A DNA stretch of 64,000 nucleotides. Source: Cellulomonas sp. C5510. Lineage in GTDB: Bacteria; Actinomycetota; Actinomycetes; Actinomycetales; Cellulomonadaceae. This document shows, piece by piece, positions 4,233 to 30,918 of this stretch; the stretch's first letter is position 1; every line of letters starts with the position of its first letter. The notes beneath the pieces are model-generated. The model was not told the DNA's origin. It made no database searches and saw only the letters and a program-made list of their open reading frames with translations. Position numbers and translations under genes: made by a program. Location: positions 3,038,001-3,102,000 of the forward strand of contig NZ_CP081862.1 of assembly GCF_019797765.1 (NCBI RefSeq), given 5' to 3'.

Positions 4233-4681
4233 AGGCGCTCACCTGGCTACGACACCGGATGCGCCACGAGGAGCGGGACGCGGGGTCGGCGACCGTGTTC
4301 GTCGCCGTGACGATGCTCGGCCTCCTGGTGCTCTGCGGACTCGTGGTCGACGGCGGGGCCAAGCTGCGCGCCACACAACGGGCCGACCGCATCGCGGCCG
4401 AAGCTGCCCGCGCCGCCGGGCAGGCTGTGGACCCCGCCGCCCTGGTGGCCGGCGACGTCACGGTGGACCGGGCCGCGGCCGTCCAATCCGCCCAGGCGTA
4501 CCTCGCGGCGGCAGGCGTCACGGGCACCGTGGCGCTCTCGCCCGATGGCACCGCCATCGAGGTCGACGTGGTGGTCACCGCGCCGAGCGTGTTCCTCGGA
4601 CTCGTCGGCATCGAGTCGTTCAGCGTCACAGGCCACGGCCGGGCGGTCCTCGTCCACGGCGTCACCGGAGGTGGGACATGA
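4229..4681 (+). CDS. TadG-like/helicase-neighbourhood pilin-like protein
   Basis: Third minor pilin-like protein, 150 residues, start fixed by ATGA overlap at both ends. It has a leader ending in RDAG and the hydrophobic stretch after SATVF, so the usual Glu at +5 is replaced by Phe, as seen in many TadG-like or secretion/TadE-like actinobacterial proteins. The rest is an extracytoplasmic domain with alternating strands and no obvious catalytic motif. Its position at the end of the pilin block suggests an anchor or adaptor role, but that is inference. Confidence 0.7.
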   Translation: MKALTWLRHRMRHEERDAGSATVFVAVTMLGLLVLCGLVVDGGAKLRATQRADRIAAEAARAAGQAVDPAALVAGDVTVDRAAAVQSAQAYLAAAGVTGTVALSPDGTAIEVDVVVTAPSVFLGLVGIESFSVTGHGRAVLVHGVTGGGT

Positions 4682-7600
4682 AGCAGGCGGTCGAGAACCG
4701 GGTCCACGATGCGGCGCGTCGCAGGGGCATCGACGTCATCCGCGGACTGCTCGCGACGGTGGGCATCGCCGGCTTCGTCATCGGCGTGCCCATCGCCCTC
4801 GCCGCGGTGGCCCCGATCCGCGTTCCGTCATCGGTCCCGTCATTCGGCGGCATCATCGACGCGCTGAGCCGGCCCGATGACGGAGACCTGCTGATCGGCA
4901 CCCTCACCGTCATCGCTTGGCTCGCCTGGGCCGCCTTCGCCGTGCCCCTCGTCGTCGAGCTGATCGCATCGCTCCGGGGCGTCCGCACCCCGCGCCTGCC
5001 GCTGCTCGGCCCCGCGCAACGAATCGCGGCCGGGCTCGTCGCCACCGCGGGCCTCCTGATGACTGCCCCTGTTGCATCGGCATCCGCCGCCTCGGCGGGT
5101 GACGCGACGGCCGTCTCGGCGATGACCCGCGTGCACCTCCAGGACGCCGACCGCGCCCAGGCGCCGGGAAGCTCCTCGTCAGACGCGGAAGGGGTAGACC
5201 CGGCTCAGCCTGCCTCGGTGACCGCTACGACGACGCTCCCCGCCGTCACCGTCGTGCGGGGCGACACCCTCTGGGATCTGGCCGAGCGTCACCTCGGCTC
5301 CGGGCACCGGTACACCGAGATCCGGGACCTCAACCTCGGGCGCGCTCAGCTCGACGGCCGCGCACTCACCGATGCCCACTGGATCTACCCGGGATGGCAC
5401 CTCCTCCTTCCTGCGGACGCGGTCGACGTCGCCGCGCAGCCGGTGCTGCCTCCGGCACCCAGCGAGGCGCCTGAGCGCGCCGCCGCCGACTACACGGTCG
5501 CGCCGGGCGACACGCTCTGGGACATCTCCGCCGAACAGCTCGGCGATCCACTGCGCTACCCCGAGATCGTCGAACTCAACCGCGGCCGACCGCAGCCGGA
5601 CGGAGGCACGCTCCAGGACCCGGACCTCATCCGCCCCGGCTGGACGCTCCGGCTCCCGGACGCCGTCGCAAGCAGCGCCGGTCCGTCGCCCGAGAAGCGC
5701 GATGACGCGCAGGTCGGTCCGGATGACGCGCCGCCGCTGGCCGATGACGCAGAGCTCGGAACCGCTCTACCGGAGACCCCCAGCGATGACACCCCCGCGA
5801 ACCCCCATGACGCAGCGCGTCTCGACGATGACGGAAGCCGGGCAGCAGATGACGCAACGGGCGGCCGTCACGTCGCCGAACCGCCCGAGGAGCAGGTTCC
5901 CGCCGAGGACGGCAACCCGGCCGAGGTTCTCGATGCCCACGACGATGACGCCGACCTCGGGCAGAGGTTCGTCCTCGGACTCACGTCTCTGGCCGCAGCC
6001 GGAGTTGTCGGTGAACTGGCGAGGCGCCGCCGCCTCCAGCAACGCGCACGTCAGGTCGGACGGCGGATCACGCTCCCTGAAGAGGGCTCGCCTGCGCACC
6101 GAGCCGAGCGCACCCTTCGGACCGCGGAACCTCCACTGACGATCGCCGCACTCAAGCTGGCGTTCTCGCACCTCGCCACACGCTGCTACGAATCTGAGCG
6201 GGACCTTCCGCGCGTCGCCGCCGTCGTCGTGACACCGGACGAGGTCACACTGCACCTGAGCGACGACGACGACGCGCCTGTCACCCCCTTCACCGCAACA
6301 GGCGCTCGGACATGGTCAACACCGCACAGGGCACTCGCCTCGATGCAGATCGCGGACGACCCGGGCCGCCCGGAGCCCTTCCCGGCACTCGTGACACTCG
6401 GCCATTCCACCGACGGGACGCTTCTACTGAACCTCGAGGCGGCAGGGACGCTGACCATCGGTGGGGACCCGGCCGTTGCGGCCGACATCCGCCGGGCGCT
6501 CGTCGCCGAACTGGTCACCTCCGATCTCACCGGCCGCATCGGCCTGGTGGCCGGCCCGGACTTCGAGCCACTCGCCCGAGCGTGCGACCCCGCCCGACTA
6601 CAGACCGCGGCGGCATCAGCGATCACCCGCACCGCCGATCGTCGGCTCAGCGATGTGCGCGACGCTCTGGAGGCAGCCGGTCTGGACGACACGCTGCAGG
6701 CCCGATCGGACCGGCTCATGGAGGACGTCTGGCTGCCCGTCGTCTTCGACTCTCCCGACGCCCCGAAGTGGCACCCGGGGCCCTGGACGGGCACCGTCGT
6801 CGTAAGGCTGGACGCCACGTCCGAGACCGGATGGACGGTGACGGCTGATGAGGCCGGCGCCCGCATCGAGCCGCTCGGTCTCCACGTCCGCCCCCAGCGC
6901 CTGAACGCAGAAGGGCTGCGCAGGCTGGTCGGGCTATTGGCACTCGCCCCACCGGTCGACGACGCCCAGTTGCAGCGCCCCACCCCGTTGACGGTGGAGA
7001 TCCTCGACGCGGCGGCGGCACTCCCCCCGACCGAGGAAGCGGACGAGACCTCCGAGGCTCCGCGACCCACTGTCCGGGTCGAACTCCTCGGACCGGTGCT
7101 GATCACGGGACTCCCCGACCAGGCCGGCCACCTGAGTCGGCGATCAACCGAGCTGCTTGTGTACCTCGCCCTCCGCGGGCGTGCGACGGGACCCGAGCTC
7201 GACGAGGCGCTCTGGTACGGCGAGCGCATCGACAGCCAGACCCGCAACAGCCTCGTCTACCGGACGCGGCAGCGCGTCGGTGCGGACGTCCTCCCTGTCG
7301 TCGGCGCAGACGGCATCTACCGACTCGGAGACATGGTCACGACCGACTGGGCCGACTTCCAGAAACACGCTCGCCAGGGCCTCGCGGCTGGCATCGAAGG
7401 GATGGACGAACTGCGGGTGGCGATGAACCTCGTGCGCGACCGACCCCTCCTCGGCGTGCGGGACGCCGACTACTCATGGGCCGAACATGACGTCCAACAC
7501 ATGATCAGCACCGTCGTCGACATCGCCCACGTTCTCAGCCGCCTCCTGCTCGGATCGGGCGATGTCCGTGGCAGCCTGGAAGCTGCGACGAGGGGGCTCA

Positions 7601-7749
7601 TGGTCGACGCGTGCTCCTCGCTCCTTCTCGACGACGCTCTCGAAGCGGCCGAGGCGGGTTCTGACGATGCAACAACGGATCGGCTCCGCAGAAGGCTGCT
7701 CGACGATATGGGGCAACAAGACGTGCTGATCCCCCAGAGGCGCCCCTGA
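4678..7749 (+). CDS. Membrane protein with two LysM domains and a C-terminal BTAD-type transcriptional regulator domain
   Basis: 1023 residues, start fixed by ATGA overlap with the TadG-like gene. Three hydrophobic helices occupy about residues 20-45, 75-97 and 115-138. Two LysM domains follow (GDTLWDLAERHLG near 196, GDTLWDISAEQLG near 278), both able to bind peptidoglycan. A low-complexity acidic linker (about 340-398) carries a 7-residue tandem repeat. A fourth helix (about 428-443) is followed by RRRRLQQRAR, a stop-transfer signal that puts the rest in the cytoplasm. The last about 220 residues (from about 800) look like a winged helix (LSRRSTELLVYLALRG) plus the helical BTAD repeat found in SARP-like activators. 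The layout suggests wall contact sensed outside and relayed to a regulator inside; that role is inferred. It ends the tad operon and a terminator-like hairpin follows. Confidence 0.82.
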   Translation: MKQAVENRVHDAARRRGIDVIRGLLATVGIAGFVIGVPIALAAVAPIRVPSSVPSFGGIIDALSRPDDGDLLIGTLTVIAWLAWAAFAVPLVVELIASLRGVRTPRLPLLGPAQRIAAGLVATAGLLMTAPVASASAASAGDATAVSAMTRVHLQDADRAQAPGSSSSDAEGVDPAQPASVTATTTLPAVTVVRGDTLWDLAERHLGSGHRYTEIRDLNLGRAQLDGRALTDAHWIYPGWHLLLPADAVDVAAQPVLPPAPSEAPERAAADYTVAPGDTLWDISAEQLGDPLRYPEIVELNRGRPQPDGGTLQDPDLIRPGWTLRLPDAVASSAGPSPEKRDDAQVGPDDAPPLADDAELGTALPETPSDDTPANPHDAARLDDDGSRAADDATGGRHVAEPPEEQVPAEDGNPAEVLDAHDDDADLGQRFVLGLTSLAAAGVVGELARRRRLQQRARQVGRRITLPEEGSPAHRAERTLRTAEPPLTIAALKLAFSHLATRCYESERDLPRVAAVVVTPDEVTLHLSDDDDAPVTPFTATGARTWSTPHRALASMQIADDPGRPEPFPALVTLGHSTDGTLLLNLEAAGTLTIGGDPAVAADIRRALVAELVTSDLTGRIGLVAGPDFEPLARACDPARLQTAAASAITRTADRRLSDVRDALEAAGLDDTLQARSDRLMEDVWLPVVFDSPDAPKWHPGPWTGTVVVRLDATSETGWTVTADEAGARIEPLGLHVRPQRLNAEGLRRLVGLLALAPPVDDAQLQRPTPLTVEILDAAAALPPTEEADETSEAPRPTVRVELLGPVLITGLPDQAGHLSRRSTELLVYLALRGRATGPELDEALWYGERIDSQTRNSLVYRTRQRVGADVLPVVGADGIYRLGDMVTTDWADFQKHARQGLAAGIEGMDELRVAMNLVRDRPLLGVRDADYSWAEHDVQHMISTVVDIAHVLSRLLLGSGDVRGSLEAATRGLMVDACSSLLLDDALEAAEAGSDDATTDRLRRRLLDDMGQQDVLIPQRRP
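5701..5868 (+). repeat. 21-bp tandem repeat, eight units, inside the LysM-BTAD gene
   Basis: GATGAC (or a one-base variant) recurs exactly every 21 bases at 5701, 5722, 5743, 5785, 5806, 5827 and 5848; the unit at 5764 has lost it. In protein this is a 7-residue repeat: DDAQVGP, DDAPPLA, DDAELGT, ALPETPS, DDTPANP, HDAARLD, DDGSRAA, DDATGGR. It forms an acidic flexible linker between the LysM domains and the fourth membrane helix. Because units are in frame, copy-number change would alter linker length without breaking the gene. Confidence 0.85.
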
Positions 7750-7757
7750 CATACTTC

Positions 7758-7812
7758 GGGGACCGAATCGTCGTTCGGCACGTGCAGGCCCTCCGCCAGA
7801 GCTTCGGTCCCC
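7758..7812 (+). terminator. Terminator-like inverted repeat after the tad operon
   Basis: GGGGACCGAA (7758-7767) and TTCGGTCCCC (7803-7812) are perfect complements separated by a 35-base loop and followed by a T-rich stretch (TTCGCTTACTTG). It lies nine bases after the stop of the LysM-BTAD gene. The long loop makes it weaker than a standard hairpin. Confidence 0.5.
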
Positions 7813-7911
7813 TTCGCTTACTTGAAGCCGCCCGCCGAGGCGCGCACCCGGGGGCCGTCAGCCTGCCCGCTTCCGTCCCGAGTCTGCGCTGACTTCGCCC
7901 GTCGGTCCCAA

Positions 7912-7923
7912 TAGTCTGGCGAG
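7912..7923 (+). promoter_or_regulatory. -10 box for a leaderless transcript of the restriction cluster
   Basis: TAGTCT at 7912-7917 is followed by six bases and then the GTG start at 7924. There is no ribosome binding site, so transcription probably begins at the start codon. A weak -35 candidate (TTCGCC) lies about 17 bases upstream. This gives the cargo its own promoter, independent of the tad operon. Confidence 0.55.
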
Positions 7924-8589
7924 GTGCCTGTCGAAGCCGCGCCAACCCATGTCTTGAGCACCGATGCCGTCCGCTGGGGCATCGACACGCTCGGAGCCCA
8001 GGTCTTGCACCCCACCTTCCCGATGTATCTGTACCTACGGACCCAGGAGCGCGCGGGGAAGCTCGGGCAGGCATCGGCGTCGTCCGAGGAACTGCTCTCA
8101 CTGATCCGGATGCCCGGTAACCGGGCGAAGCCGTACTACTGGCCTCTGATCGCCCGAGGGCAGCGCACCGGCAAGCCACTGCCGACCTTCTGGCGGGCTG
8201 AGAACATCCCGGGCTCCTGGTCCCCCGGTTCCATAGGTCGGCAAATGTCGTGGCTGCAGGCTTCGAGAGGCGCGTACGCCTGGCCTCCGAACCACGTTGA
8301 CCTTGCCCTCAAGGAGATGCTCTTCGGCAAGCAGGTCCCGGCGCTGGCGATGGGTGCCTACTTCCTCCGCAACGACGGTTTCCTCCTCTCCGGGGAGCCG
8401 AGCGCAGATGACGTGATCAGTGCCTTCCGAGCCAAGTTCGACTACCCGTCCGCGGCCGACGCGGAGTTCAACAAGCTCTTCACCACGGACGTTCCGGACG
8501 TGGAGTTCGCGTGGTTCGAGGACTACGAGGCCCCAGAGCCCGATACCTCAGACGACTCCGGCGCCGACGAGGAGCCCGCTGATGTTTGA
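7924..8589 (+). CDS. Unknown protein, first gene of the McrBC-like cluster
   Basis: 221 residues; I do not recognise a family. The start is the GTG six bases after a TAGTCT box (leaderless). The protein is mixed alpha/beta, rich in Trp and aromatic residues in the middle (YYWPLIARGQRTG, FWRAENIPGSW, MSWLQ), and ends in an acidic tail (EAPEPDTSDDSGADEEP). No signal peptide, membrane helix or nuclease motif is visible. It overlaps the McrB-like gene by eight bases, so the two are translationally coupled. The McrB-like partner lacks the N-terminal DNA-recognition domain of E. coli McrB, so this protein could supply target recognition as a separate subunit; that is inference from context only. 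Confidence 0.75.
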   Translation: MPVEAAPTHVLSTDAVRWGIDTLGAQVLHPTFPMYLYLRTQERAGKLGQASASSEELLSLIRMPGNRAKPYYWPLIARGQRTGKPLPTFWRAENIPGSWSPGSIGRQMSWLQASRGAYAWPPNHVDLALKEMLFGKQVPALAMGAYFLRNDGFLLSGEPSADDVISAFRAKFDYPSAADAEFNKLFTTDVPDVEFAWFEDYEAPEPDTSDDSGADEEPADV

Positions 8590-9544
8590 GGAGCTCGTGC
8601 CGGCCGTACGCACGCTCGGGGCCGATGACCTGGGCATCGGCGTCAAGGAACAGGCACGGACCAGCCACGCGTCCAGTGCCCCGGACGCTCCTGTGATCAC
8701 GAGCGACGATCCGTACGTGCAGGAGATCGCCCGCCTCGCCAGCATCTACGGCGGGGTGATCCTGTCCGGCCCTCCGGGGACCTCGAAGTCGTTCTACGCC
8801 AGCGCTGCGGCCGAGATCATCGCGGGGTCCAAGAACCGCGTGAAGTTCGTGCAGTTCCACGCGAGCTACCAGTACGAGGACTTCATGCTGGGATTCACCC
8901 CTACCGAGACAAGCTTCAAGCCCAAGGAGGGCCCCTTCCTCGAGCTGGCGAAGGCTGCCGCCGGCCATCCGGATGACACCTACGTCCTCGTCATCGACGA
9001 ACTGTCCCGCGCCGACGTCGGCCGTGTGTTCGGCGAGGCACTCACCTACGTTGAGAACACCAAGCGCGAGCTCCCCTTCACCATCGCCAACGGCGAGGAG
9101 ATCAAGGTCCCCGAGAACCTGGTGATCCTCGCGACCATGAACCCGTTCGACCGAGGCGTCGACGAGGTGGACGCCGCCTTCGAGCGGCGCTTCGCCAAGA
9201 TGGCCATGGACCCCGACCGGGAGCTCCTGGAGGCCATCCTCGAGTCGAACGGCATGGATCCCGACTTGCAGCGCAGGGTGATGATCTGGTTCGAGCGGAT
9301 CAACAACTACGCGAGCAGCAACCCGGCGGCCGCTGTCGGCCATGCCTACTTCTCCACGGCCAGCGACGAGAGCTCGCTCGCCGACATCTGGAGGTATCAG
9401 CTCAAGTACCTCGTCGAGCGCGCCTTCCGACGCGACCAGAACACCCGTGCGGCACTTGAGACCGGCTGGCAGCACATCTTTGCTACGCCGGATCCCCCTG
9501 AGCACGGGACCGAAACCGAGCCGGCTCCCGCGACCGGGGACTGA
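8582..9544 (+). CDS. McrB-like AAA+ NTPase (restriction motor)
   Basis: 320 residues, ATG at 8582 overlapping the upstream gene. AAA+ motor of McrBC type: Walker A GPPGTSKS (63-70), Walker B VLVIDE (135-140), the MNPFDR sensor (186-191) and the ERRF arginine-finger region (201-204), matching the McrB pattern MN..DR followed by RRF. In McrBC this subunit hydrolyses GTP, forms a ring, translocates and activates the McrC nuclease. Compared with E. coli McrB (459 residues) the N-terminal modified-cytosine-binding domain is missing; only about 45 residues precede the AAA core. The acidic, Pro-rich C-terminus ends two bases before the mcrC start. Confidence 0.88.
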   Translation: MFEELVPAVRTLGADDLGIGVKEQARTSHASSAPDAPVITSDDPYVQEIARLASIYGGVILSGPPGTSKSFYASAAAEIIAGSKNRVKFVQFHASYQYEDFMLGFTPTETSFKPKEGPFLELAKAAAGHPDDTYVLVIDELSRADVGRVFGEALTYVENTKRELPFTIANGEEIKVPENLVILATMNPFDRGVDEVDAAFERRFAKMAMDPDRELLEAILESNGMDPDLQRRVMIWFERINNYASSNPAAAVGHAYFSTASDESSLADIWRYQLKYLVERAFRRDQNTRAALETGWQHIFATPDPPEHGTETEPAPATGD

Positions 9545-9546
9545 CC

Positions 9547-10938
9547 GTGATCAAGGTGGGCTCTGACGCTGTCCACGTGGCGGAGTGCGTCGAGTACGCG
9601 CAGATCGACGTCCACCCGGCACTGTGGTTCGGCGACGGCAACCGGACGATCTTCAACTCCGAGATCGACGGCAAGGACGTCCTGCGGGTCAACTTCTCGG
9701 GCGGGGTCCTCAGACTCCAGGCCACCTCGTTCGTGGGCGTCATCCCAATCAACGAGCGACTGGTCGTCCGTGTCAGGCCGCGCGTTCCGATGAAGAGCCT
9801 CACGCGCATGGTGATCGAGACCGGTCACGGCGTCATGGCGCTGTCGGCGCTTCGAGACTACGCCGGTCGTGGCCCGGCTGACGACTGGGCCATGGAGCGC
9901 TACACCGACGCGCTGCTCGACTTCCTCGACAAGCTCCTCGACACCGGACTCATGCGCACCTACGAGCGCCGTGAGGGGGAGGGGCACTTCCCGCACGGCC
10001 GGATCGAAATGACCCGGACGGTCCAGCGCTTCGCGGCGAAGGGCGTCCCAAACAAGGCGGCGTTCTCCTGGTTCGAGCGTACGGTCGACACGCCGGCCAA
10101 CCGCTGCATCAAGGCCGCCATGGAGGTGGTCTACAACCACCTGAACGGGGCGCGGCCGAATCCCCGGAAGGGAGATATGTCGCGTCTGAGGCGCCTCGCT
10201 GGCCACTTCGCGGCGTTCGATGAGGTCTCCTGGGACGCCGACTATCGCTTCCTTGGAGACCCCCAGGTGCTCGGCGTCTCGCCGCTGCCCGACTCGCGGT
10301 CCTACTACCGACCGGTGCTCGACCTCTCAATGCTGATCGTGCGCGGGATCGGCATCGCCCTGGACATCGGCGGCAGCGACGTCCAATTGGGCTCGCTCCT
10401 GGTCGACACGAACAAGCTGTTCGAGAAGTTCGTGCGGATGAGCCTGGCCAAGTACGCCCGGGCCCACGGCTGGCCGGTCAACGTGCTCGACGGCAATACC
10501 GAGGGCAAGGTCGCGCTGTACGACGTCCCGGATCCCCTGCCCGCGCCGCTCGGCCGCCAGTTGGCGGCGATGGCGAGCCGCGATGCTGGTGCGGCACAGC
10601 CCGACGTCGTCCTGCGCACCGCCGACGGCGTAGTGCCGCTCATCGCGGAGATCAAGAACACCCCCACCTCCGACGAGTCGCTGCCAGACCGCGGACACGT
10701 CGAGCAGGCCGTCACGTACGCGATTCGCTACGGACTCGACTTCGCGCTGCTGATCCACCCCTGGAGCCGAGGCAGCAAGGGCCTGACTTACGTCGGACGC
10801 GTCCGCTCGATCGACGTCTACGACTACCGGCTCGACATGTCGAGCGAGGCGGGCCTCGACCAAGCACTCGAGGACATGGCCGTCACGGTGGCCCGACTCG
10901 CTGGGATTGCGTCCGCTCAGTCGATGGCTTTGATCTGA
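9547..10938 (+). CDS. McrC-like PD-(D/E)XK nuclease subunit
   Basis: 463 residues from a GTG two bases after the mcrB-like stop. The N-terminal half is the beta-rich/helical McrC domain that docks on the McrB ring (FVGVIPINERLVVRVRPRV, then an extended helical part). The C-terminal half has the nuclease core: D353 in QPDVVL and E368/K370 in AEIKN, with a following Q in HVEQAVTYA, i.e. D...ExK. In McrC this cuts DNA when the motor stalls. The gene ends inside the convergent methyltransferase gene (22-base tail-to-tail overlap). All catalytic residues seem present, so the system is probably active. Confidence 0.87.
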   Translation: MIKVGSDAVHVAECVEYAQIDVHPALWFGDGNRTIFNSEIDGKDVLRVNFSGGVLRLQATSFVGVIPINERLVVRVRPRVPMKSLTRMVIETGHGVMALSALRDYAGRGPADDWAMERYTDALLDFLDKLLDTGLMRTYERREGEGHFPHGRIEMTRTVQRFAAKGVPNKAAFSWFERTVDTPANRCIKAAMEVVYNHLNGARPNPRKGDMSRLRRLAGHFAAFDEVSWDADYRFLGDPQVLGVSPLPDSRSYYRPVLDLSMLIVRGIGIALDIGGSDVQLGSLLVDTNKLFEKFVRMSLAKYARAHGWPVNVLDGNTEGKVALYDVPDPLPAPLGRQLAAMASRDAGAAQPDVVLRTADGVVPLIAEIKNTPTSDESLPDRGHVEQAVTYAIRYGLDFALLIHPWSRGSKGLTYVGRVRSIDVYDYRLDMSSEAGLDQALEDMAVTVARLAGIASAQSMALI

Positions 10939-12059
10939 TCCATCCAGTTCACGAGGTCGACTCCGACGCCGTCGCGGCCTTCCTCGATGGCGGTCTTCAG
11001 CGTCGTTCCGGTGCCGGCGAACGGGTCCAGGACCACGCCGCGGGCCGGCGTGCCGTGGCCGCAGTCGGTCCAGCCGACCGTGCGCTTCTTCGCGAACGTG
11101 AACTCGCGGAAGTAGCCGCCGAGGGCCGCCTTCGCCTCGGCGGCCAGGCGCTGCACCTCGAGGCTGTTGCGGCCCGTGCCGTTCTGAAACTTGGTCGCCT
11201 TGCCGACATCGGACACCCCGAACGCCTGAATCGCGCGGATGTGCTCGGGCGTCAGACCCCTCTCCTTGGCTAGCTCCATCGCCCGTTTGGCCTGCGGCCG
11301 GGACGGATCGAGTTCGGCGGTGCGCTCGATGACCCGGCGGCGGGGCACCTCGCAGGTCGCGCAGACCTGCTGGGGAGCGGCCAGCGCAATCGCCCGGCGG
11401 ACAAGCTCGCGCGGGTAGGGAGCCAGGTGCTGGCCCATGTTGCGCTCCGGGTTGATCATCCACACGTCGCCCGGGTTCGCGCCGTTGCCATACTCCTCGG
11501 AGTAGCCGACGAGGTCGTAGTAGTAGCTCGGCCTGTACGTGAGGTGAATGACGTACTCGTGCCGATTGGCGAGGCGGTTCTTGACCGGGTCGGGCATGCC
11601 CGACTCCTTCGCCCAGATGATCCGGTTCCGGATCAGCCAGTCGCCCTTGGCCGCCTGCCACTCGATCTGACCGGGGATGCCAAGCAGGGACTTGTGGAAG
11701 TACGTGTCGCCGACGTTGAGGAATACCGAGCCGTGCGGCCGAAGGACGCGCTTCCACTCGGCAAGGCATTCCATGATCGACGCGACGTAGCCGTCAGGCG
11801 TCGGCTCTAGGCCGATCTGGTCGCTGTGGCCGTAGTCCCGCTTGTTCCAGTACGGAGGCGAGGTCACGATCAGGTCCACCGACTTGTCGGGAAGTCCGGT
11901 CTCGCGCGCGTCCCCGGGGGTGAAGCTCAGTTGCGGATCGAGGAGGTCCGGCTCCCAGTCGGCCAGTTGGCTGATTGTGGCCGTGCCCAGCGCTGCTCGG
12001 GGTGCCGCAGGCTCCGAATCTGCGCGGACCTCGGCAGCGCGCTTCCCGGCTCGTGTCAT
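10917..12059 (-). CDS. Site-specific DNA methyltransferase (N4-cytosine or N6-adenine, beta-type motif order)
   Basis: Transfers methyl from S-adenosylmethionine to an exocyclic amino group of DNA. The catalytic motif SPPYW (about residue 67) comes first and the SAM-binding motif DPFAGTGTT (about 345) is near the C-terminus, the order of beta-class enzymes; SPPY favours N4-cytosine but does not exclude N6-adenine. A long insertion between them has CATC and DCGH pairs that could bind zinc. I start at the ATG at 12059 because AGGAAG lies nine bases upstream; the GTG at 12113 (54 bases further) is the alternative. It faces the mcrBC-like genes tail to tail with a 22-base overlap. Such a pairing suggests that the methylase protects host sites from the McrBC-like nuclease, as in LlaJI-type systems; this is inference. 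Confidence 0.85.
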   Translation of the reverse strand: MTRAGKRAAEVRADSEPAAPRAALGTATISQLADWEPDLLDPQLSFTPGDARETGLPDKSVDLIVTSPPYWNKRDYGHSDQIGLEPTPDGYVASIMECLAEWKRVLRPHGSVFLNVGDTYFHKSLLGIPGQIEWQAAKGDWLIRNRIIWAKESGMPDPVKNRLANRHEYVIHLTYRPSYYYDLVGYSEEYGNGANPGDVWMINPERNMGQHLAPYPRELVRRAIALAAPQQVCATCEVPRRRVIERTAELDPSRPQAKRAMELAKERGLTPEHIRAIQAFGVSDVGKATKFQNGTGRNSLEVQRLAAEAKAALGGYFREFTFAKKRTVGWTDCGHGTPARGVVLDPFAGTGTTLKTAIEEGRDGVGVDLVNWMDQIKAID

Positions 12060-12113
12060 GTGGAGTGGCTTCCTAGCTTCGGATGTCGTTCGCGTTGTCC
12101 CGGTGCCGAACAC

Positions 12114-12479
12114 TAGTCGGCAAGACCGACAGAGGACCGTTCGCCCAGGTCAACGCCTCATCGCTCCTGTTCTACCAAGCGCGAGGGGTGGTCGTCGAGT
12201 CCCCACGCGGTGCGTCGGGAAGTCCGCTTGAGACGTGGATCGGCCATGAACCGCCCCGGGGGACGCTGAAGGCTGCTGACCTCGGAACGGGGGATCTGAC
12301 CTTTGGTCATGCCATGAGACGCGCCGAAGGGAAAAGCGCCTGGTGACGCCGATCGGCAACCTTCATCCCCGGTCTGTGCAACCGAACTCTTGCGCCCTCC
12401 GATCGGCAGGTTGGTCGTCCTCGCGGCACACCTCTACGTGAGCGCGTCGTCCGGCGCGCACGTCGACGGGAGGTCAGTC
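12114..12479. other. Non-coding gap between cargo and conjugation operon
   Basis: No convincing gene. It holds the upstream region of the methyltransferase (a TAGTGT box about 12100-12105 on the minus strand) and, near the right end, two copies of a palindromic CCGATCGGCA site that could be operators for the conjugation operon. A weak promoter-like pair (TTGGTC, then TACGTG) lies at about 12411-12440. Confidence 0.4.
12348..12408. promoter_or_regulatory. Pair of palindromic sites upstream of the conjugation operon
   Basis: GCCGATCGGC at 12348-12357 and CCGATCGGCA at 12399-12408 share the core CCGATCGGCA as direct repeats exactly 50 bases apart, close to five helical turns. They lie 70-130 bases before the first conjugation gene. 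Spacing and symmetry suit a cooperative repressor, but no binding protein is identified. Confidence 0.4.
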
Positions 12480-12791
12480 ATGGTCGCGTCTGGACTCGCA
12501 CGGTGGTCGCTCGCGGCGGCCGACCCGGGGATCAGCCCGAACGAGGACGGGCTGCCCGGTCTGCCCGTCATCCGGTCGATCGTCGGCGCCCTGCTGACGT
12601 GGGGCCTGGTGGCCTGTGTCGCGGGCCTCGTGGTTTCGGTGATCGTGTGGGCGCTGGCCCACCAGCAGGGCAACTACCAGTACGCGTCGGGTGGGAAGTC
12701 GGGCGTGGTGGTCTCGGCCGGCGGGGCGCTGCTGATCGGGGCGGCGAACGCGATCGTCGGGTTCTTCGCCGGACTCGGGTCGGGTGTCTGA
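12480..12791 (+). CDS. DUF6112-family small membrane protein (pilin-like, conjugation operon)
   Basis: 103 residues. An in-frame upstream start at 12390 exists, but the ATG at 12480 has GGGAGG six bases before it, so I use this one. Two membrane helices (about residues 30-56 and 80-100) are separated by a short polar loop (HQQGNYQYASGGKSG), the same plan as VirB2/TrbC pilins. DUF6112 proteins stand at the head of actinobacterial conjugation operons just before a TrbL-like gene, as here. Its exact role (pilin or channel part) is inferred from layout. Confidence 0.75.
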   Translation: MVASGLARWSLAAADPGISPNEDGLPGLPVIRSIVGALLTWGLVACVAGLVVSVIVWALAHQQGNYQYASGGKSGVVVSAGGALLIGAANAIVGFFAGLGSGV

Positions 12792-13932
12792 CGTGGTTGC
12801 CACCGAGCTCGACCCGTGCGTCGGGCCCATCGTCTTCGTCTGCGACCTGGTCTCGAACGCCGCGGGCTCGGCCCAGGCCGCGGCCTCTGACTACGTCCTC
12901 GGCGGCATCGCGAGTGCCTTCACCAACGCTGCGGCCCACCTGGGCGAGATGGCGCTGCGCCTCCTCGACTCGTCGACCGCCGTGGATCTCTCCGCCGACT
13001 GGCTCAGGGCCAACGTCGGCGTCGTGACGGCGGTCACGCTGCCCCTCGTCGTCGGACTGTTCGCCGCCCAGGTGATCGGCTCCGTCCTCCGGCGGGAGGG
13101 CGCCGGCCTGGCACGCGCCGTCGTGGGAGTCGGCAAGGCGCTGCTCGGCGGCGCTCTCGCGCTCGGAGCGACACAGCTCGCGCTAACAGCCGTCGACGAG
13201 ATGTGCGAAGCGATCGCCGGCGCTGCAGGCACCACGGTGGGCGCGGCTGCTTCGCAGTTCTTCAACTTCACTGCGCTGGCCACCTCCCAGTCCCCCGGAC
13301 TGCAGCTGCTCATCGCGTTCCTGCTCTGCCTCGCCTTCCTCCTGCTATGGGGAGTGCTGCTGTTCCGCAAGGCCGCCCTCATCCTCATCGCCGTGTTCGC
13401 TCCCGTCGCGTTCGCAGGGTCGGCGTGGGACCAAACGCGGGTGTGGACCCGTCGATGGCTCGAGATCGTCGCCGCGCTCGTGTTCTCGAAGCTCGTCATC
13501 GTCGTGGTCTTCGTCGTCGGCGCCTCCGCCTTCAGTGGTACCGGCCCGGACCTGGCGGGCACCACCGAGGTCACGCCCGACGCGCGGTCGTTCTCCGACC
13601 TGCTCGTCGGGCTGCTCCTCATGGTCATCGCCCTGTTCGCGCCGTGGCTGACGTGGCGGTTCGTGCACTGGTCAGGCATGGAGGCCGCGAGCCTCATGCA
13701 CCAGAACGTCGCGGCAAACCCGATCTCGCGTGCGGGCCAGGCGGCTGGGCGCACGACGCGCGTGGCGGCGCAGCACGCCGCGCTCACGATGGTCACCAGC
13801 GGTGCCGGGTCGGCCGCGACGGCAGCTCGCGGCAGTCGGGCCGTCGCGGCAGCCAAGCCGATGGCCGCAGCCCCGCCCAAGGCGGCGGCGCCGGCCACGC
13901 GGGCAGCCACTGGGAAGGCGGCCGGGTCGTGA
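12784..13932 (+). CDS. TrbL/VirB6-like conjugal transfer membrane protein
   Basis: 382 residues from a GTG overlapping the previous stop; a second GTG nine bases later is possible. About six hydrophobic helices between residues 75 and 305 (VVTAVTLPLVVGLFAAQVIG, LLIAFLLCLAFLLLWGVLLF, ALVFSKLVIVVVFVVGASAF, LLVGLLLMVIALFAPWL) match the polytopic VirB6/TrbL channel protein. The C-terminal about 75 residues are Ala- and Arg-rich low complexity, typical of the cytoplasmic tail. In type IV secretion this protein forms the inner-membrane channel. The stop overlaps the start of the next gene as GTGA. Confidence 0.82.
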   Translation: MSDVVATELDPCVGPIVFVCDLVSNAAGSAQAAASDYVLGGIASAFTNAAAHLGEMALRLLDSSTAVDLSADWLRANVGVVTAVTLPLVVGLFAAQVIGSVLRREGAGLARAVVGVGKALLGGALALGATQLALTAVDEMCEAIAGAAGTTVGAAASQFFNFTALATSQSPGLQLLIAFLLCLAFLLLWGVLLFRKAALILIAVFAPVAFAGSAWDQTRVWTRRWLEIVAALVFSKLVIVVVFVVGASAFSGTGPDLAGTTEVTPDARSFSDLLVGLLLMVIALFAPWLTWRFVHWSGMEAASLMHQNVAANPISRAGQAAGRTTRVAAQHAALTMVTSGAGSAATAARGSRAVAAAKPMAAAPPKAAAPATRAATGKAAGS

Positions 13933-15347
13933 GCGCCGCGACGGGCGTTCCCGGGGGCCTCTCCGTCCGGTTCGGCCGACGCGAGCGCCGCGGCATCCTG
14001 CTCGGGCTCGGCGCCGCCCAGCTCGTCATCCTTGGCGTCGCGACGTTCGTAGCGGTCGCCGGCGTGTACACGAACGGCGGGGGCGGGCTTGCCGCCTCCG
14101 CGGTGATCTGGGGGCCGCTGCTGGTCCTGGCGCTGGCGTCCGTCGGCGGACGACCGCTCGTCGAGTGGGTGCCCCTGTCCACGGCTTGGGGCGCCCGCCG
14201 TCTCACCGGCGCTCGCGAGGTCGCGCTGCCGGTGCCGCGCCGCAGCCTTGAGCTGCCTGGCGTCGGCACGATCCCCCTCGTCGCGACGCCTGTCGTCGGT
14301 GCCGCACTGCTCGTCGACCGCCCGGGCGGTGCGGTGACCGCGATCGCGCGCGTCTCCGGTCGGGGCTTCGTCCTGGACGACCCCGGCACCCAGGGTCGGA
14401 AGGTCGACGGGTGGGGACGCGCGCTGGCCACCATCGGCCGTCGCCGGACGGTCCGGCGAGTCCAGCTGGTCCTGCGGACCACTCCGGCGGGAGACACCGC
14501 TGCGCACCGTTGGTGGCGAGAGAACGCGGTCGCCACGGGTTCGTGGGCGGGGACCGTCCTGGCGGAGCTGATGCACGACGCCGCCTACGTCGGTCGCCGT
14601 GCGGAGACGCTCCTGGCGATCGCCCTGCGCCCGCCCCGCGGCGGCCTCCGACAGCTGAACGAACCCGACGTGCGCACGCTCGAGCAAGAGCTCGGCGCCG
14701 TCGCCGATGCCCTCGCGGGCGCCGACATCGACATCACCGGCTGGGTGAGCGCGGCCGAGGTTTACTCGGTGCTGCGCACCGCCTACGACCCGACGACACG
14801 CCCCGCCCCCGAGCACGTCCCGAGCTCCGCGGCACCTCCCGCCATGGGCATCGCAGAGTCGTGGACCCACGTGACCACCGACGGTGGCGTGCACTCGACG
14901 TACTGGATCGCCGAGTGGCCGCGGTCCGACGTCCACCCCGGTTTCCTGCAACCCCTCCTGCTGTCCCCCGACGCCGTGCGCACCGTCACCCTGATCGCCG
15001 AGCCGCTCCCCATCGCCTCCTCCCTTCGCGAGATCCGCCGGGCCAAGGCCGAGCACGCCGCCGACTCCGCACAGCGCGCCCGGATCGGACAGGTGGAGGA
15101 CGAGTCCATCCGCGCCGAGCTCGACGACCTGCTCCGCCGGGAACAGGAGCTCGTCGCGGGCCACGGCGACCTGCGCTTCACCGGGCTCGTCACCGTCACG
15201 GCTCGCTCCACCGAAGACCTCGACGCGGCGTGCGCCGCGACGGAGGCGGCAGCAGCCCAGGCGCTGTGCGAGCTCCGCCGCCTCGTCGGGCAGCAGGCGT
15301 CAGCTCACCTGGCCGCCACAGTGCCGCTCGCGCGAGGTGTGCTGTGA
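13929..15347 (+). CDS. SCO6880-family type IV secretion-associated protein
   Basis: 472 residues, GTG start overlapping the trbL-like stop. Two N-terminal membrane helices (about 22-45 and 52-72) are followed by a large soluble domain without Walker motifs but with the look of a VirB4/TraE N-terminal domain (PVPRRSLELPG, WTHVTTDGGVHSTYWIAEWP, a helical IRRAKAEHAADSAQRARIGQ segment). The next gene carries the ATPase half, so the two together resemble one VirB4 unit split into a membrane-anchored N-terminal protein and a C-terminal motor. SCO6880 homologues occur in this operon position in many actinobacterial ICEs. Confidence 0.75.
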   Translation: MSAATGVPGGLSVRFGRRERRGILLGLGAAQLVILGVATFVAVAGVYTNGGGGLAASAVIWGPLLVLALASVGGRPLVEWVPLSTAWGARRLTGAREVALPVPRRSLELPGVGTIPLVATPVVGAALLVDRPGGAVTAIARVSGRGFVLDDPGTQGRKVDGWGRALATIGRRRTVRRVQLVLRTTPAGDTAAHRWWRENAVATGSWAGTVLAELMHDAAYVGRRAETLLAIALRPPRGGLRQLNEPDVRTLEQELGAVADALAGADIDITGWVSAAEVYSVLRTAYDPTTRPAPEHVPSSAAPPAMGIAESWTHVTTDGGVHSTYWIAEWPRSDVHPGFLQPLLLSPDAVRTVTLIAEPLPIASSLREIRRAKAEHAADSAQRARIGQVEDESIRAELDDLLRREQELVAGHGDLRFTGLVTVTARSTEDLDAACAATEAAAAQALCELRRLVGQQASAHLAATVPLARGVL

Positions 15348-23419: not shown

Positions 23420-23833
23420 CTACACCGCATCTGAGCGGGTGCGAATGGCCGACGACCGGTGGTCACCAGAGCGGCACCCTGTTCGCGCCACCCACTCTGC
23501 GAGCCTCGTCCGGGCCAGCCCGAAGCGCTCGTGCCAGGCCAGAGGTGCGTCGCCGTGAGAGGTCGTTGCGTAGGCAGCCTCCCAGGCGAGCTGCAGGGCC
23601 GAGAGCTCCTCGATGAGCTCCCAGTGCTTGGGCCAGCACTCGGGGACGTAGCGGCGATCGAGGGCGTAGTGGTCGACGAGCCACCTGACCCATGCGTCGA
23701 GGCCCTCCAGGAGGTGGCGTTGCTCTTCGCGGGTGTATGCGGACCACATGATCGGTTGGGGCGGGAAGCTCGGCTGGGTGTTCACCACCTCGGGAAGGAA
23801 GCCTCGGTCGGTTCCACCGCTCGTGCCGCTCAC
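23420..23833 (-). CDS. DUF4913-like protein, coupled to the relaxase
   Basis: 137 residues from a GTG that overlaps the relaxase stop by four bases (GTGA); a GTG 33 bases further upstream is the alternative. The central part (EGLDAWVRWLVDHYALDRR, CWPKHWELIEELSALQLAWE, WHERFGLARTRLAEWV) fits the DUF4913 pattern of conserved Trp residues around a W..H......L..L...W core. DUF4913 genes are frequent next to relaxases and other transfer genes in actinobacterial mobile elements; function unknown. The overlap implies it is made together with the relaxase. Confidence 0.68.
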   Translation of the reverse strand: MSGTSGGTDRGFLPEVVNTQPSFPPQPIMWSAYTREEQRHLLEGLDAWVRWLVDHYALDRRYVPECWPKHWELIEELSALQLAWEAAYATTSHGDAPLAWHERFGLARTRLAEWVARTGCRSGDHRSSAIRTRSDAV

Positions 23834-26800
23834 AGGGTCACGCTCCTCTCGCTTGCCGCTCCGCACACCGGATCAACCGTCGTCGGCCGGTAGGCGGGCA
23901 CGTAGCCCTCCCGCGCCGGGTCGACGTTGCTGCGGCTGCCGAACGACGCCGAACCCAGGGCGTCGGCACGCTCGGCGAGGAGCTCGTCAACCTGGTCGAG
24001 CAGTGCGCCGATGTCCGTCGAGATGTCATCGGCGTCGGCGGTGATCGCCACGTCAGCCGGGTCTTCCGTGTGCGTCCGTAGCCACTCGTGCACGCGGTGG
24101 TGGAGCGCCGCTGCGGTCTCGGCCGCCGGGTGTGGTCCGTCGAGGGGCCGGGCTGCGACGAGACCCGCGAGGACCTCGTTCATCGGGTGGCCGAGCGCGC
24201 GGCCCCGCTCAAGGGCCGTGAGGAGCGGCCCGCGGGCGGGCGATGTCGCGATCTGGTCGCACTGCTCCGCCGTCAGCCCGACGGTTGGGAACACGGCGCC
24301 CCAGTGCTCGGCTGCCGCGTCGGCGAGGAGTGTGTGCCGGATGGGCAGCAAGCGCCTGGGCGAGGCCGCTTCGTCCTGCGAGGCCGCGATCGTCTCCGTC
24401 GCGGAAAGCTCACTACCCGTCGCCGTGAGGATGGCTTCGAGCGCATCGCGGCCACCCTGGGAGATCTGGTGCTCGGGCGGGTAGTCGCAGGCGGCGTCGA
24501 TGGTGTCGAGGGCGACGTAGGCGTGGTTGTCGTGGCGTCCTCGGGTCATGGCGACGTAGAGGTTCTCTCGGAACATGCCGGGAGCGGCGAGCACATGGGC
24601 ACGGTCGACCGTGACCCCCTGGGCGCGGTGTGTGGTGGTCGCGTAGCCGAGGTCGACGTGATTGGCGGCGTAGGCAGCGGGGAGGACGACATCGTCCGCC
24701 TGCGCGCTCGCTGCGCGATCCCGGCGGGAGAGCGGCACGACGGTCAGGGCACCGTCGGGTGCGATCGCCGTGACCTGCCACAGGTCGCCGTTGCGGACGT
24801 GCCCGTTGGGTGTGCGCAGGCGCCGGTCGTTGGCTCGCGTGATGACGTGGTCCCCGACGCCGACCTCGGTGCCGGTGCTGGTGGTGACCCCCGTGGCCGT
24901 GACGAGGCCGTCGGTGACGCGGTCGTTGTGGGCGCGGGTGTTCAGGACGTCGACTGTGCGTGAGTCGGAGGCGATGAGGATGGCACTGGCCCCGCGTTCG
25001 GTGTCGGTCTGCCAGGCGGTGTAGGCGTCCTCGCACATGGCTTCGGCGGGGCCGGCGCTGATCCGGCCGTGGTCGGCGTAGTCGTCGATCGCGCGGGCGT
25101 CGCCTGCACGCAGGCGCAGGGTCGCGGCGGCCTCCCACGGATGGGTGAAGCGCCACAGCGAGGTCAGCGTGGCTGGGCGTCCGCGCTCGGCCAGGAGGTG
25201 GAACGCGCCGCCGGCGTCGACGGCGGAGAGCTGCTTGTGGTCACCGACGAGCAGCACCTTCGCGCCGGCTTCGCTCGCCTGGGATGTGAGGGCGTCGAGT
25301 GCGAAGGTGCCGGCGAGTGATGCCTCGTCGACGATCAGGAGCTGGCCCGTCCGGAGCCTGAACCGGTCGCTCTGAGCGGTCAGGGTGGTAATGGCGGTGT
25401 CGATGGTGCGCAGCCGCGTCCGGTGGTCGATCCCGGTGGCGCTGATGCGCTCGATGTGGAGGCGGGCCAGCAGTTCGGTGCGCCGCTGGGCGCCGGGGCC
25501 GGTGGACTCGTAGAGCCACTTGGCCGTGTTCTCGCACGCGATCCCGAGGGCGTGGCCGAGCTCGGCAGCCGCAGTGGCGGACGGGGCGAGTCCGACGACG
25601 CTGCCACGTCCGTGGCCCTGCTCCCACACGGCCTTGAGGGCGGCGAGGGTTGTGGTCTTGCCGGTGCCCGCGGGTCCGACGAGGACGTTGAGGAGTCGGG
25701 TCGAGCCGGTGATGTGCTCGACGGCGGTCGCCTGGTCCGGCGCGAGGGTGACGGTGCGGCCGTCGGTGCGGTGGATCGGCCGGGAGGTGACGGCCTTGGC
25801 GAGCCACGGGGCGGTCGTAGGCGCGTCAGCATCGCGGGTGGCGGCATTCAGGAGGCGGGCTTCGGCGTCGAGCACCTTGTGGTGGGTGTAGCGGCCCTCG
25901 TCGACCCTGGTGAACTGCGAGGTGCCGTCGGGTCGGGTGTAGCGGGCGGGGACGACGAGCGGGTCGGGTGCCTGCAGGCTCGTGCAGGAGCGCAGCGCGG
26001 CGTCGGTGACGCGCTCGAGCAGCGCGACGCGGTCGGCTGGGCCGGTCATGCGGATCGCCCGGGTGGCGCGGGCTGCCTCGGCCATGACGTTCCACCGGGT
26101 CCAAGTCGAACGCCGCGTCATCACCTGCTCGAGCGTGTGCTCGGCGAGCCGGCCGATGACGGACGCGGGAATGCGATCACATCCCAGCGGCGCGGCCCGG
26201 GACACCCTGAGCACCGCGGCGGTGAGCTCTGCGGGCGTCTTGCCGGAGCGTTCCGTGGCGCGGGCGCGCCATAGCGTCATCAGGTCGGCCAGGGGCGTGA
26301 CGTGCTTCTTCGGCCGGACCGAACGGGTCACCTGCTGGCGCAGCCGGACGATCTCGATGCGGTTCGGGCCGCGCCCGTGGGTCGCGTAGAACTCGGCGAG
26401 CACGCCCGTCATCGCCTCGTCTATCTGCGTCGCGCGACTGGAGAACTCCGTCATCAGCGCGTCATCGACGCCGTCGAGCTCGAACGCCGGCGAGCGGCGC
26501 GGGCCGCGATGACGCCACCCGAACCGAACCGGCAGGCGACGGGCGACCTCGTCGGCCAGCAGGTCGTCATACAGCTCGGAGACCATCACGACGGCGTGAT
26601 GCAGGGCCCGTGAGTCCACCGACAACCAGGCGCCGCCCGGGCCCTGGACCTTGTTCGCCACGACGAGATGCGTGTGCAGGTTCGGGTCCCCGGCGCGGGA
26701 GTCCCAATGGTCGAAGCCGGCCGCGATGAGCCCGGCAACCTGGTGCTGGCGGCAGCCGGCGGTGCCCGTGCGCGTGAACGCGGCGGTGTCCTCCAGGAAC

Positions 26801-27330
26801 GCGAGCGCCTGCCCCACGGCGGCCCGGTGCGCCGCGAGGAGCGCGGCGCGCGTGCCGTCGTCGGCCACCGCCCAAAGGGTGGAGACGGACTTCGTCGCGG
26901 TGAAGGTCAGGTCGAAGCCCGCGACCGCGGTGGCCGTGCGCTTGGCGAGCTCGACGCGCGTGATGGTCGCTACCGCGGCCTCGCGGGCTTCCCCGGTGAG
27001 GTCGGCCGGAAGGGCGGCGACCTGCTTGGCGATCCGCTCCGCCGCGGGAGTGCGCCTCGGGTACGGGCGGCCGAGCGAAGTGCCGGTCTGCGGGTCCTTG
27101 CCCTCCCCATACAGGTTCGCCATCTGCTCCTCCGTGACCTGGGCACCCTCGCCCGGACCGCCGCCGGCGAGCCCCACGAGCCCACGCCCGTACCAGCGAC
27201 CGGCCGGGTTCCCCGAAGCCGTGTAGTACGTCGTCAGGTCCGACGCCGCCGGACGGTCGCAGTCCCCCGACGCGGTTGTGCGCATCAGGTACTGGTAGCC
27301 ACTGCCCGCGGTCAGGCGGTGCATCGTCAT
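23830..27330 (-). CDS. MobF-type relaxase with C-terminal TraI-like helicase
   Basis: 1166 residues. It nicks the element at oriT, stays covalently bound to the DNA end and unwinds the transferred strand. The start at 27330 (MTMHRLTAGSGYQYLM) matches the usual start of actinobacterial MobF relaxases; ATG 27324 is also possible. Candidate catalytic tyrosines are Y12/Y14 and Y35/Y36; the HUH metal site is H208 with H219 and H221 in NLHTHLVVAN. The helicase part has Walker A GPAGTGKTT (about 552), LLIVDEAS, GDHKQLSAVD, TTHRAQG and VAMTRGR. The frame extends further upstream without a stop, but that part lacks family similarity. It overlaps the DUF4913 gene. Confidence 0.92.
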   Translation of the reverse strand: MTMHRLTAGSGYQYLMRTTASGDCDRPAASDLTTYYTASGNPAGRWYGRGLVGLAGGGPGEGAQVTEEQMANLYGEGKDPQTGTSLGRPYPRRTPAAERIAKQVAALPADLTGEAREAAVATITRVELAKRTATAVAGFDLTFTATKSVSTLWAVADDGTRAALLAAHRAAVGQALAFLEDTAAFTRTGTAGCRQHQVAGLIAAGFDHWDSRAGDPNLHTHLVVANKVQGPGGAWLSVDSRALHHAVVMVSELYDDLLADEVARRLPVRFGWRHRGPRRSPAFELDGVDDALMTEFSSRATQIDEAMTGVLAEFYATHGRGPNRIEIVRLRQQVTRSVRPKKHVTPLADLMTLWRARATERSGKTPAELTAAVLRVSRAAPLGCDRIPASVIGRLAEHTLEQVMTRRSTWTRWNVMAEAARATRAIRMTGPADRVALLERVTDAALRSCTSLQAPDPLVVPARYTRPDGTSQFTRVDEGRYTHHKVLDAEARLLNAATRDADAPTTAPWLAKAVTSRPIHRTDGRTVTLAPDQATAVEHITGSTRLLNVLVGPAGTGKTTTLAALKAVWEQGHGRGSVVGLAPSATAAAELGHALGIACENTAKWLYESTGPGAQRRTELLARLHIERISATGIDHRTRLRTIDTAITTLTAQSDRFRLRTGQLLIVDEASLAGTFALDALTSQASEAGAKVLLVGDHKQLSAVDAGGAFHLLAERGRPATLTSLWRFTHPWEAAATLRLRAGDARAIDDYADHGRISAGPAEAMCEDAYTAWQTDTERGASAILIASDSRTVDVLNTRAHNDRVTDGLVTATGVTTSTGTEVGVGDHVITRANDRRLRTPNGHVRNGDLWQVTAIAPDGALTVVPLSRRDRAASAQADDVVLPAAYAANHVDLGYATTTHRAQGVTVDRAHVLAAPGMFRENLYVAMTRGRHDNHAYVALDTIDAACDYPPEHQISQGGRDALEAILTATGSELSATETIAASQDEAASPRRLLPIRHTLLADAAAEHWGAVFPTVGLTAEQCDQIATSPARGPLLTALERGRALGHPMNEVLAGLVAARPLDGPHPAAETAAALHHRVHEWLRTHTEDPADVAITADADDISTDIGALLDQVDELLAERADALGSASFGSRSNVDPAREGYVPAYRPTTVDPVCGAASERSVTL

Positions 27331-27602
27331 CACCACGGCGATGCACCGCCAACCACGGCCACTCCTGGCGTCCGAGATGGTCGGCCCGCCAGGATCCGCT
27401 GTCGCGTCGTCTCCACGCCAAGATGTGTGCCCGCGGGCGTACCAACCTGGGGCCGGCGCAACCGGAAGTGCCAGACGAGTCAGCGCTCCAACCTCGGACC
27501 GCGAAGTCCACTTCCCTCCCCGAGCAGCCCGACGGCGGTGGACGCTATTGAGAGACTTGGCGCTGATCGAGAGCAGTTGTTGCGCGGCTCGCTGGAGGTC
27601 CT
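27331..27602. other. Divergent intergenic region, candidate oriT
   Basis: This 272-base gap separates the divergent relaxase and HNH genes. It contains inverted repeats: CCTGGCG (27364-27370) with CGCCAGG (27387-27393), and the palindrome GCCCGCGGGC (27429-27438); GCATCG/CGATGC (27321-27344) overlaps the relaxase start. MobF elements commonly carry oriT, with hairpins and a nick site, beside the relaxase gene. No nick-site consensus can be assigned by eye. Confidence 0.35.
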
Positions 27603-30702: not shown

Positions 30703-30918
30703 CCTCGCGGCGCTAGGCGAAGCCGTGGGGCCAGCGGGGGCGTGCGCTGGCACTCGGTAACGAGGCGCCTGTTGAGGAGCCCGGCATCCTCAGCACGGGG
30801 ACATGATCAATGCTGCCCGGGGCCCGGGAGGCCGTCGACAAGCGAACTGGCAGCGCCGATCAGGCCGCTCTGGGCGCGGCCTGGGCACGGACGTCGGCCA
30901 TGCACCATCATCCAGACT

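Follow-up and report, generated by a model that had tools for sequence, protein, structure and literature searches.

What purpose does an McrBC-type motor serve when it is encoded beside a DNA methyltransferase of its own? We asked this of a four-gene block at nucleotides 7924–12113 of a stretch of the Cellulomonas sp. C5510 genome (contig NZ_CP081862.1, positions 3,038,001–3,102,000; this whole stretch of 64,000 nucleotides (nt) is called the window here). The four genes are open, with catalytic motifs intact, and encode a first subunit of undescribed family (R0), an McrB-like NTPase, an McrC-like nuclease subunit and a methyltransferase with an SPPY motif. The block is probably a DNA defence system on a mobile element of this actinobacterium. 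Judging from sequence comparison, we think it likely that this is a restriction–modification system built on an McrBC motor and blocked by modification, and that a conjugative element carries it.

In the mechanism that we propose, the methyltransferase would mark a short motif in the cell's own DNA, probably as N4-methylcytosine (m4C) in view of SPPY, and R0 would recognise the same motif when unmethylated. R0 may dock on the McrB ring via a conserved McrB N-terminal peptide, VRTLxADDLGIG. As a chain of its own, it would correspond to the specificity domain at the N-terminus of McrB. The ring would drive the complex at the expense of a nucleoside triphosphate, probably GTP, and cleavage of the DNA would fall to the PD...(E/D)xK site of McrC.

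The four-gene unit and its relatives

Genes for McrB, McrC and the methyltransferase adjoin R0 in all seven non-redundant loci found through R0 (one, L002, recurs as G1409 with identical identities and was counted once). Six have the gene order of the window with a convergent methyltransferase, while the seventh, L006, has methyltransferase–R0–McrB–McrC on one strand. This bears out the first-pass annotation of the window, which had proposed an McrBC-like cluster and an amino-methyltransferase belonging to it, and had named R0 homologues lying mainly apart from mcrB and mcrC as the finding that would speak against it; both genes are present in 7/7 loci once two marginal fragments are set aside. 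These fragments, G1183 and G1085 (27–28 residues, E about 1e-3), have no McrB, McrC or methyltransferase within 12 kb and were dropped as chance matches. The flanking open reading frames (ORFs) of the Herbihabitans (L002) and Antrihabitans (L003) loci differ from each other and from those of the window, so it is the four-gene unit itself that is kept.

Eight loci were aligned (the window, L002, L003, L006, L024, L025, L026 and L027). Across them, the pairwise identities of the four proteins covary, with r of 0.87–0.98 uncorrected for kinship (R0–McrC 0.98, R0–McrB 0.96, R0–methyltransferase 0.88), and R0 and McrC diverge faster than the methyltransferase. In six of the eight, the R0 gene overlaps that of McrB by 8 or 13 nt (8 nt in the window, where 2 nt separate McrB from McrC); in L025 and L026 the two genes lie 11–12 nt apart. 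L006 has a second McrB-like gene of 613 residues about 2 kb downstream of its R0 block (13238–15079, plus strand).

R0 is rare in genomes. It was matched in 1 of 396 genomes of a phylum sample, 1 of 396 of the order, 2 of 394 of the class and 1 of 98 relatives, the window's own genome being one in each; in another order, 7 of 348 genomes gave matches, two of them fragments at E about 1e-3 and one of the five clear ones being the L002 contig again. Only part of the candidates in each genome was scored (7 or 8 in the large samples), so these searches may have overlooked distant copies. A scan of genome contigs with the single R0 sequence found only two loci.

The two hallmarks of the McrBC family, an AAA+ protein with Walker A and B motifs and NxxD and, beside it, an McrC with PD...(D/E)xK, are both present. 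McrB shares GPPGTSK[ST], VIDELSR and NP[FHL]D throughout the eight aligned loci, and McrC keeps its nuclease motif in all eight. The modified-base-reading N-terminal domain on McrB that marks type IV systems is absent: only 62 residues precede Walker A, with no Pfam domain in them. The first-pass description of an McrB without its N-terminal recognition domain beside an apparently intact McrC nuclease thus stands. The Pfam scores are well above the cut-offs (AAA_5, 62.5 versus 22 bits; McrBC PF10117, 51.7 versus 23.9; N6_N4_Mtase, 117.6 versus 26.7) and, together with the conserved neighbourhood, place the block above chance. PADLOC recognised the methyltransferase strongly (PDLC03316) and McrB weakly, through two ‘Type II restriction enzyme’ models (37.6 and 31.5 bits), and had no match for R0 or McrC of the window.

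All four genes lie where they had first been seen, with two start codons corrected. McrB begins at ATG 8582 and not at the ORF start at 8420, as its homologues align from the methionine at 8582, and the methyltransferase, judged likewise by alignment with its homologues, most likely begins at ATG 12059 rather than 12113. As to the accompanying proposal of one block with its own promoter, a sigma-70 pattern scan gave 0 sites (mean of shuffles 0.3), and since the methyltransferase lies on the minus strand, convergent with R0–McrB–McrC (the McrC and methyltransferase 3′ ends overlap by 22 nt, 10917–10938), there are two transcription units, not one. What speaks for a promoter is a candidate TANNNT hexamer, presumably the −10 element of a leaderless promoter by what is generally known of actinobacteria. 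It stands 6–7 nt before the R0 start in seven of the eight loci compared (the window, L002, L003, L006, L024, L025 and L026, but not L027; L083, described below, was left out), with a background of ~0.0003 per position in the window.

Table 1. Features of the block and of its slot, in window positions
Feature	Position	Strand	Basis and remarks
R0, first subunit	7924..8589	+	ORF, GTG start at 7924, 221 residues; family undescribed; proposed DNA-recognition subunit
McrB-like AAA+ NTPase, 320 residues	8582..9544	+	AAA_5; E. coli McrB structures E 9e-34; no N-terminal specificity domain
McrC-like nuclease subunit, 463 residues	9547..10938	+	PF10117, 51.7 bits
SPPY amino-methyltransferase, about 380 residues	10917..12059	-	PF01555, 117.6 bits; PDLC03316, 603.7 bits; ORF runs on to 12113
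Candidate −10 hexamer TAGTCT	7912..7917	+	6 nt upstream of the R0 start codon
Walker A of McrB, GPPGTSKS	8768..8791	+	Ser replaces third Gly, same in all eight aligned loci
NPFD, NxxD signature of McrB-like GTPases	9140..9151	+	Sequence; motif as defined in an accessible part of PMC11090510
PD...ExK nuclease motif of McrC (P352 D353 ... E368 I K370)	10600..10656	+	PD...(E/D)xK kept in 8/8 aligned loci
SPPY, methyltransferase motif IV	11850..11861	-	Sequence, alignment
FAGTGTT, S-adenosylmethionine-binding motif I	11001..11021	-	C-terminal of motif IV (beta order)
Left anchor, LysM protein	4678..7749	+	PF01476; beside the slot in 7/11 fetched relatives
Right anchor, small ORF and TrbL/VirB6-like gene	12480..13932	+	PF04610

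R0 and the methyltransferase

R0 of the window has no Pfam, PADLOC or NCBIfam match, and none of 99 family members has a significant Pfam or PADLOC match. A protein database holds 208 homologues at E ≤ 0.001, itself counted, and with the distant L006 R0 as query at least 21 were returned, the query again included. The AF2 model of R0 is confident (pLDDT 90.9) and has no structural match in PDB or BFVD. No close relative was found on plasmids, on phages or in IMG/VR; the IMG/VR scan used two peptide patterns, and the distant R0 of L083 escaped it, which limits these negative results to close relatives.

L083 is a viral contig, found through its methyltransferase, that adds an eighth relative. 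R0 and McrB are here in one frame of 506 residues (8331–9848, minus strand), the R0 profile covering residues 3–194 and the McrB profile residues 207–505, and no other frame of the fused stretch stays open beyond 139 codons. The contig also encodes McrC and, convergent with it, the methyltransferase. In the descriptions that we consulted, McrBC-type motors read DNA through domains fused to McrB, at its N-terminus in E. coli McrB, H. pylori LlaJI and T. gammatolerans McrB (PMC7680126; papers cited by such identifiers are drawn on for their accessible passages). This natural fusion suggests that R0 takes the place of the McrB N-terminal specificity domain, which strengthens the case for the separate candidate recognition subunit that had been proposed from the window.

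Amino-methyltransferases with motif IV before motif I are named beta class. The window's enzyme has SPPY before FxGTGTT and matches PF01555, in agreement with the beta-type amino-methyltransferase first noted, and both motifs are kept in 8/8 aligned loci. SPPY suggests m4C as the product; the methyltransferase of phage PhiCh1, annotated ‘putative N4-cytosine methyltransferase’, is 33% identical. The central region, likely the target-recognition part, is strongly conserved in the eight loci, which suggests that the whole family shares a single DNA motif. A model of the enzyme matches 38 of 197 class genomes and exceeds 500 bits only in two, the same two that carry R0 in the 394-genome search.

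Close relatives of the methyltransferase also occur on phages. Those of mycobacteriophages Dulcie and Parliament are 73% identical to it (2 of 27 phage records matching at E ≤ 1e-30). The annotation shows no McrBC gene within 4 kb in Dulcie, and none within 2 kb in Parliament. With the window's R0, tblastn gave no match in 50,697 phage records, a collection not searched for McrB and McrC. Both phages have two neighbouring methyltransferase genes, one being the 73% relative (L080:3977-5053 in Dulcie; L081:1977-3053 in Parliament). In a 13-row tree, the phage enzymes join those of the blocks and one from a Streptomyces plasmid, apart from two haloarchaeal enzymes (support 100/100); most of the branching order within the groups is poorly resolved, and the tree has four long branches. 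Two haloarchaeal plasmids, L010 and L011, carry methyltransferases 57% and 48% identical to the window's, with no McrBC in the listed annotation. In IMG/VR, the single methyltransferase sequence had no match, and alignment A4 of the methyltransferase found 25 viral-contig loci, among them L082, which is evidently Dulcie. In 20 of these (26–43% identity), there is no R0, McrB or McrC in the fetched stretch.

Lactococcal phages of the 936 group are reported to have acquired methyltransferases that protect against restriction enzymes (accessible part of PMC4190342), and a phage methyltransferase without R0 is what would be expected if methylation protects. Going by these sequences, the phage copies are most simply read as counter-defence, which would support a protective mark, although the enzyme may have a role of its own for the phage. 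An alternative is a type IV McrBC: R0 would read modified DNA of foreign origin, and the methyltransferase would be no more than a linked partner, with a mark that the system does not target. Methylated DNA is what E. coli McrBC cleaves, and linkage of mcrBC to methyltransferase genes is frequent and has been interpreted in this way (parts of PMC2614495); the occurrence of the methyltransferase without McrBC would also fit. We regard this as decidedly unlikely, because the methyltransferase is present in 7/7 R0 loci, in two gene orders, and because of the phage copies just described.

Several observations weigh against a modification-blocked system with R0 as its reader. Comparison with PDB reveals no recognisable DNA-binding fold in R0, its core is mildly acidic (pI 5.9), and the R0–McrB fusion was seen once only. 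R0 is only 34% identical to that of L027, against 73% for the methyltransferase, and this faster divergence is unexpected if both read exactly one site in the same way. Three further viral loci (L084, L085 and L086), with methyltransferases 58–64% identical to the window's, lack a recognisable R0, McrB or McrC within the stretch fetched, and a copy on a Streptomyces plasmid has no McrBC gene annotated within 6 kb; the methyltransferase can therefore exist alone. The lack of a known DNA-binding fold and the mildly acidic core would also suit R0 as an assembly, coupling or regulatory factor, with recognition lying in the McrB N-terminal peptide or in McrC, where 56 residues precede the PF10117 match. 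We consider this unlikely, since in L083 R0 sits at the McrB N-terminus, where the DNA-reading domains of E. coli McrB and of the H. pylori and T. gammatolerans proteins named above lie (PMC7680126, in part).

For the narrower proposal, that R0 is a sequence-specific reader of new fold, free or fused to McrB, and that exchangeable readers make McrBC motors modification-blocked, our confidence is tentative, a little under an even chance. If it is right, a free-standing reader of undescribed fold and its fused form would make recognition, motor and nuclease separable and testable individually. Because there is a single methyltransferase, with close relatives in phages, methylome sequencing offers a way to the target motif.

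The cargo slot of a conjugative element

The block fills a slot at window positions 7750–12479 that is bounded by a LysM gene on the left and by a small ORF and a TrbL gene on the right. The conjugative element also has VirB11/TadA-like, TraG/TraD-like and TrwC-relaxase genes. G+C content is 65–68% in the block and 71–74% in the flanks, as would suit imported cargo. TrbL relatives were found in 15 of 97 other genomes, of which the best 11 by E-value were examined (L060–L070). Both anchors are in view in seven of these slots, with ~0.2 (L067, empty), 2.7, 2.9, 3.9, 4.3, 6.1 and 6.5 kb between the matches; the left anchor lies beyond the fetched stretch in L060, L063, L064 and L069.

Family scans covered picked proteins from eight slots, L069 and L070 being left out. 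The defence-type genes that they identified encode two ThsB-type TIR proteins (L061), Vsr with a 5-methylcytosine (5mC) methyltransferase and an OLD-like protein (L062), IetAS with a PDC-S28 protein (L060), and PDC-S28 with an AlbA_2 protein (L064). Families other than defence were MerR and NmrA (L065), Lgt (L068) and GGDEF (L063), and the single protein scanned from L066 had no family match. Such varied contents indicate that the cargo at this site varies; in 4 of the 11 relatives it includes recognisable defence genes. Elsewhere in the window, downstream of the TrwC relaxase gene (23830–28167), an 1837-residue protein (30742–36255, plus strand) with a NO VEIN C-terminal match and weak Sacsin matches is a possible further defence gene.

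Comparison with known systems

The general design is already known. LlaI, from Lactococcus plasmid pTR2030, and BsuMI, from Bacillus subtilis, each have three restriction ORFs, among them a short McrB of 337–343 residues (as described in parts of PMC1459862). Both come with methyltransferases and cleave unmethylated DNA, and with LlaJI they form a type II-like subfamily with paired methyltransferases that was named in 2008 (accessible text of PMC2614495). The block might thus be an ordinary member of this group, with R0 a diverged homologue of the LlaI/BsuMI third subunit, and the three restriction ORFs and short McrB favour this. We hold it to be somewhat unlikely. McrBC-type genes are clustered with a methyltransferase here, but this is one SPPY enzyme on the opposite strand where the group has a pair (PMC2614495, in part), and the McrC is of the PF10117 type. 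RE_LlaJI (PF09563) matches only B. subtilis among 14 controls, in a gene presumed to be that of BsuMI, and PF10117 gives no match there; in the window's own genome PF09563 has none.

LlaJI, to which the first-pass annotation had likened the block without mention of LlaI or BsuMI, is less close in layout. It shares an McrBC-type motor and nuclease and its own methylation, and is plasmid-borne in Lactococcus, but it has two 5mC methyltransferases, a DNA-binding part fused to McrB (R1, 585 residues) and an RE_LlaJI nuclease (PMC1459862, in part). The absence of PF09563 from the genome and the gene content speak against it as nearest relative. From a search with LlaJI R1 for three-ORF cassettes like LlaI, four regions were examined, all of LlaJI-like or two-ORF layout.

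E. coli McrBC (type IV) shares the AAA+ McrB (E 9e-34 to structures) and the PD...(D/E)xK of McrC, but has no methyltransferase, and its McrB has its own N-terminal domain for modified cytosine, absent here. The methyltransferase-associated McrB clades of Bell et al. (2024) share NxxD and a linked predicted DNA methyltransferase and were deferred to a forthcoming paper; the accessible portion of that report (PMC11090510) mentions no R0-like subunit. Our literature search, mostly of open-access papers, found neither a description of R0 nor the forthcoming paper on these clades.

On alphaproteobacterial plasmids of Mesorhizobium, Roseibium and Sphingobium, one site-specific methyltransferase gene is followed by an AAA gene and then by a third, which in Roseibium and Sphingobium is annotated as hypothetical only. 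The Mesorhizobium proteins are 30% (methyltransferase, SPPY), 34% (McrB) and 26% (McrC) identical to those of the window. McrB of these systems (L007, L078 and L079) has a different N-terminal domain of 230 residues, without a Pfam match in 3/3; profile comparison of this domain with R0 gave a probability of 0.4%, and the idea that R0 is a split-off form of it was dropped for want of support. McrB-similar plasmid matches comprised 336 records, of which six were examined among the matches listed. H1 and H46 were used, and H2, H3, H7 and H13, McrBC- or type I-linked with no methyltransferase of the block's kind, were set aside.

The first-pass suggestion of an incompletely described system therefore holds for R0 and its lineage and not for the general design, which LlaI and BsuMI already exemplify (PMC1459862, in part). 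Possible kinship of their first subunits with R0 is the main threat to its novelty. With that proviso, what is apparently new is the R0 family, whose model is unmatched and which would add a family absent from PADLOC-DB 2.0.0 and Pfam. Apparently new as well are the single convergent SPPY methyltransferase, a PF10117-type McrC in such a cassette, and a reader in split and fused forms.

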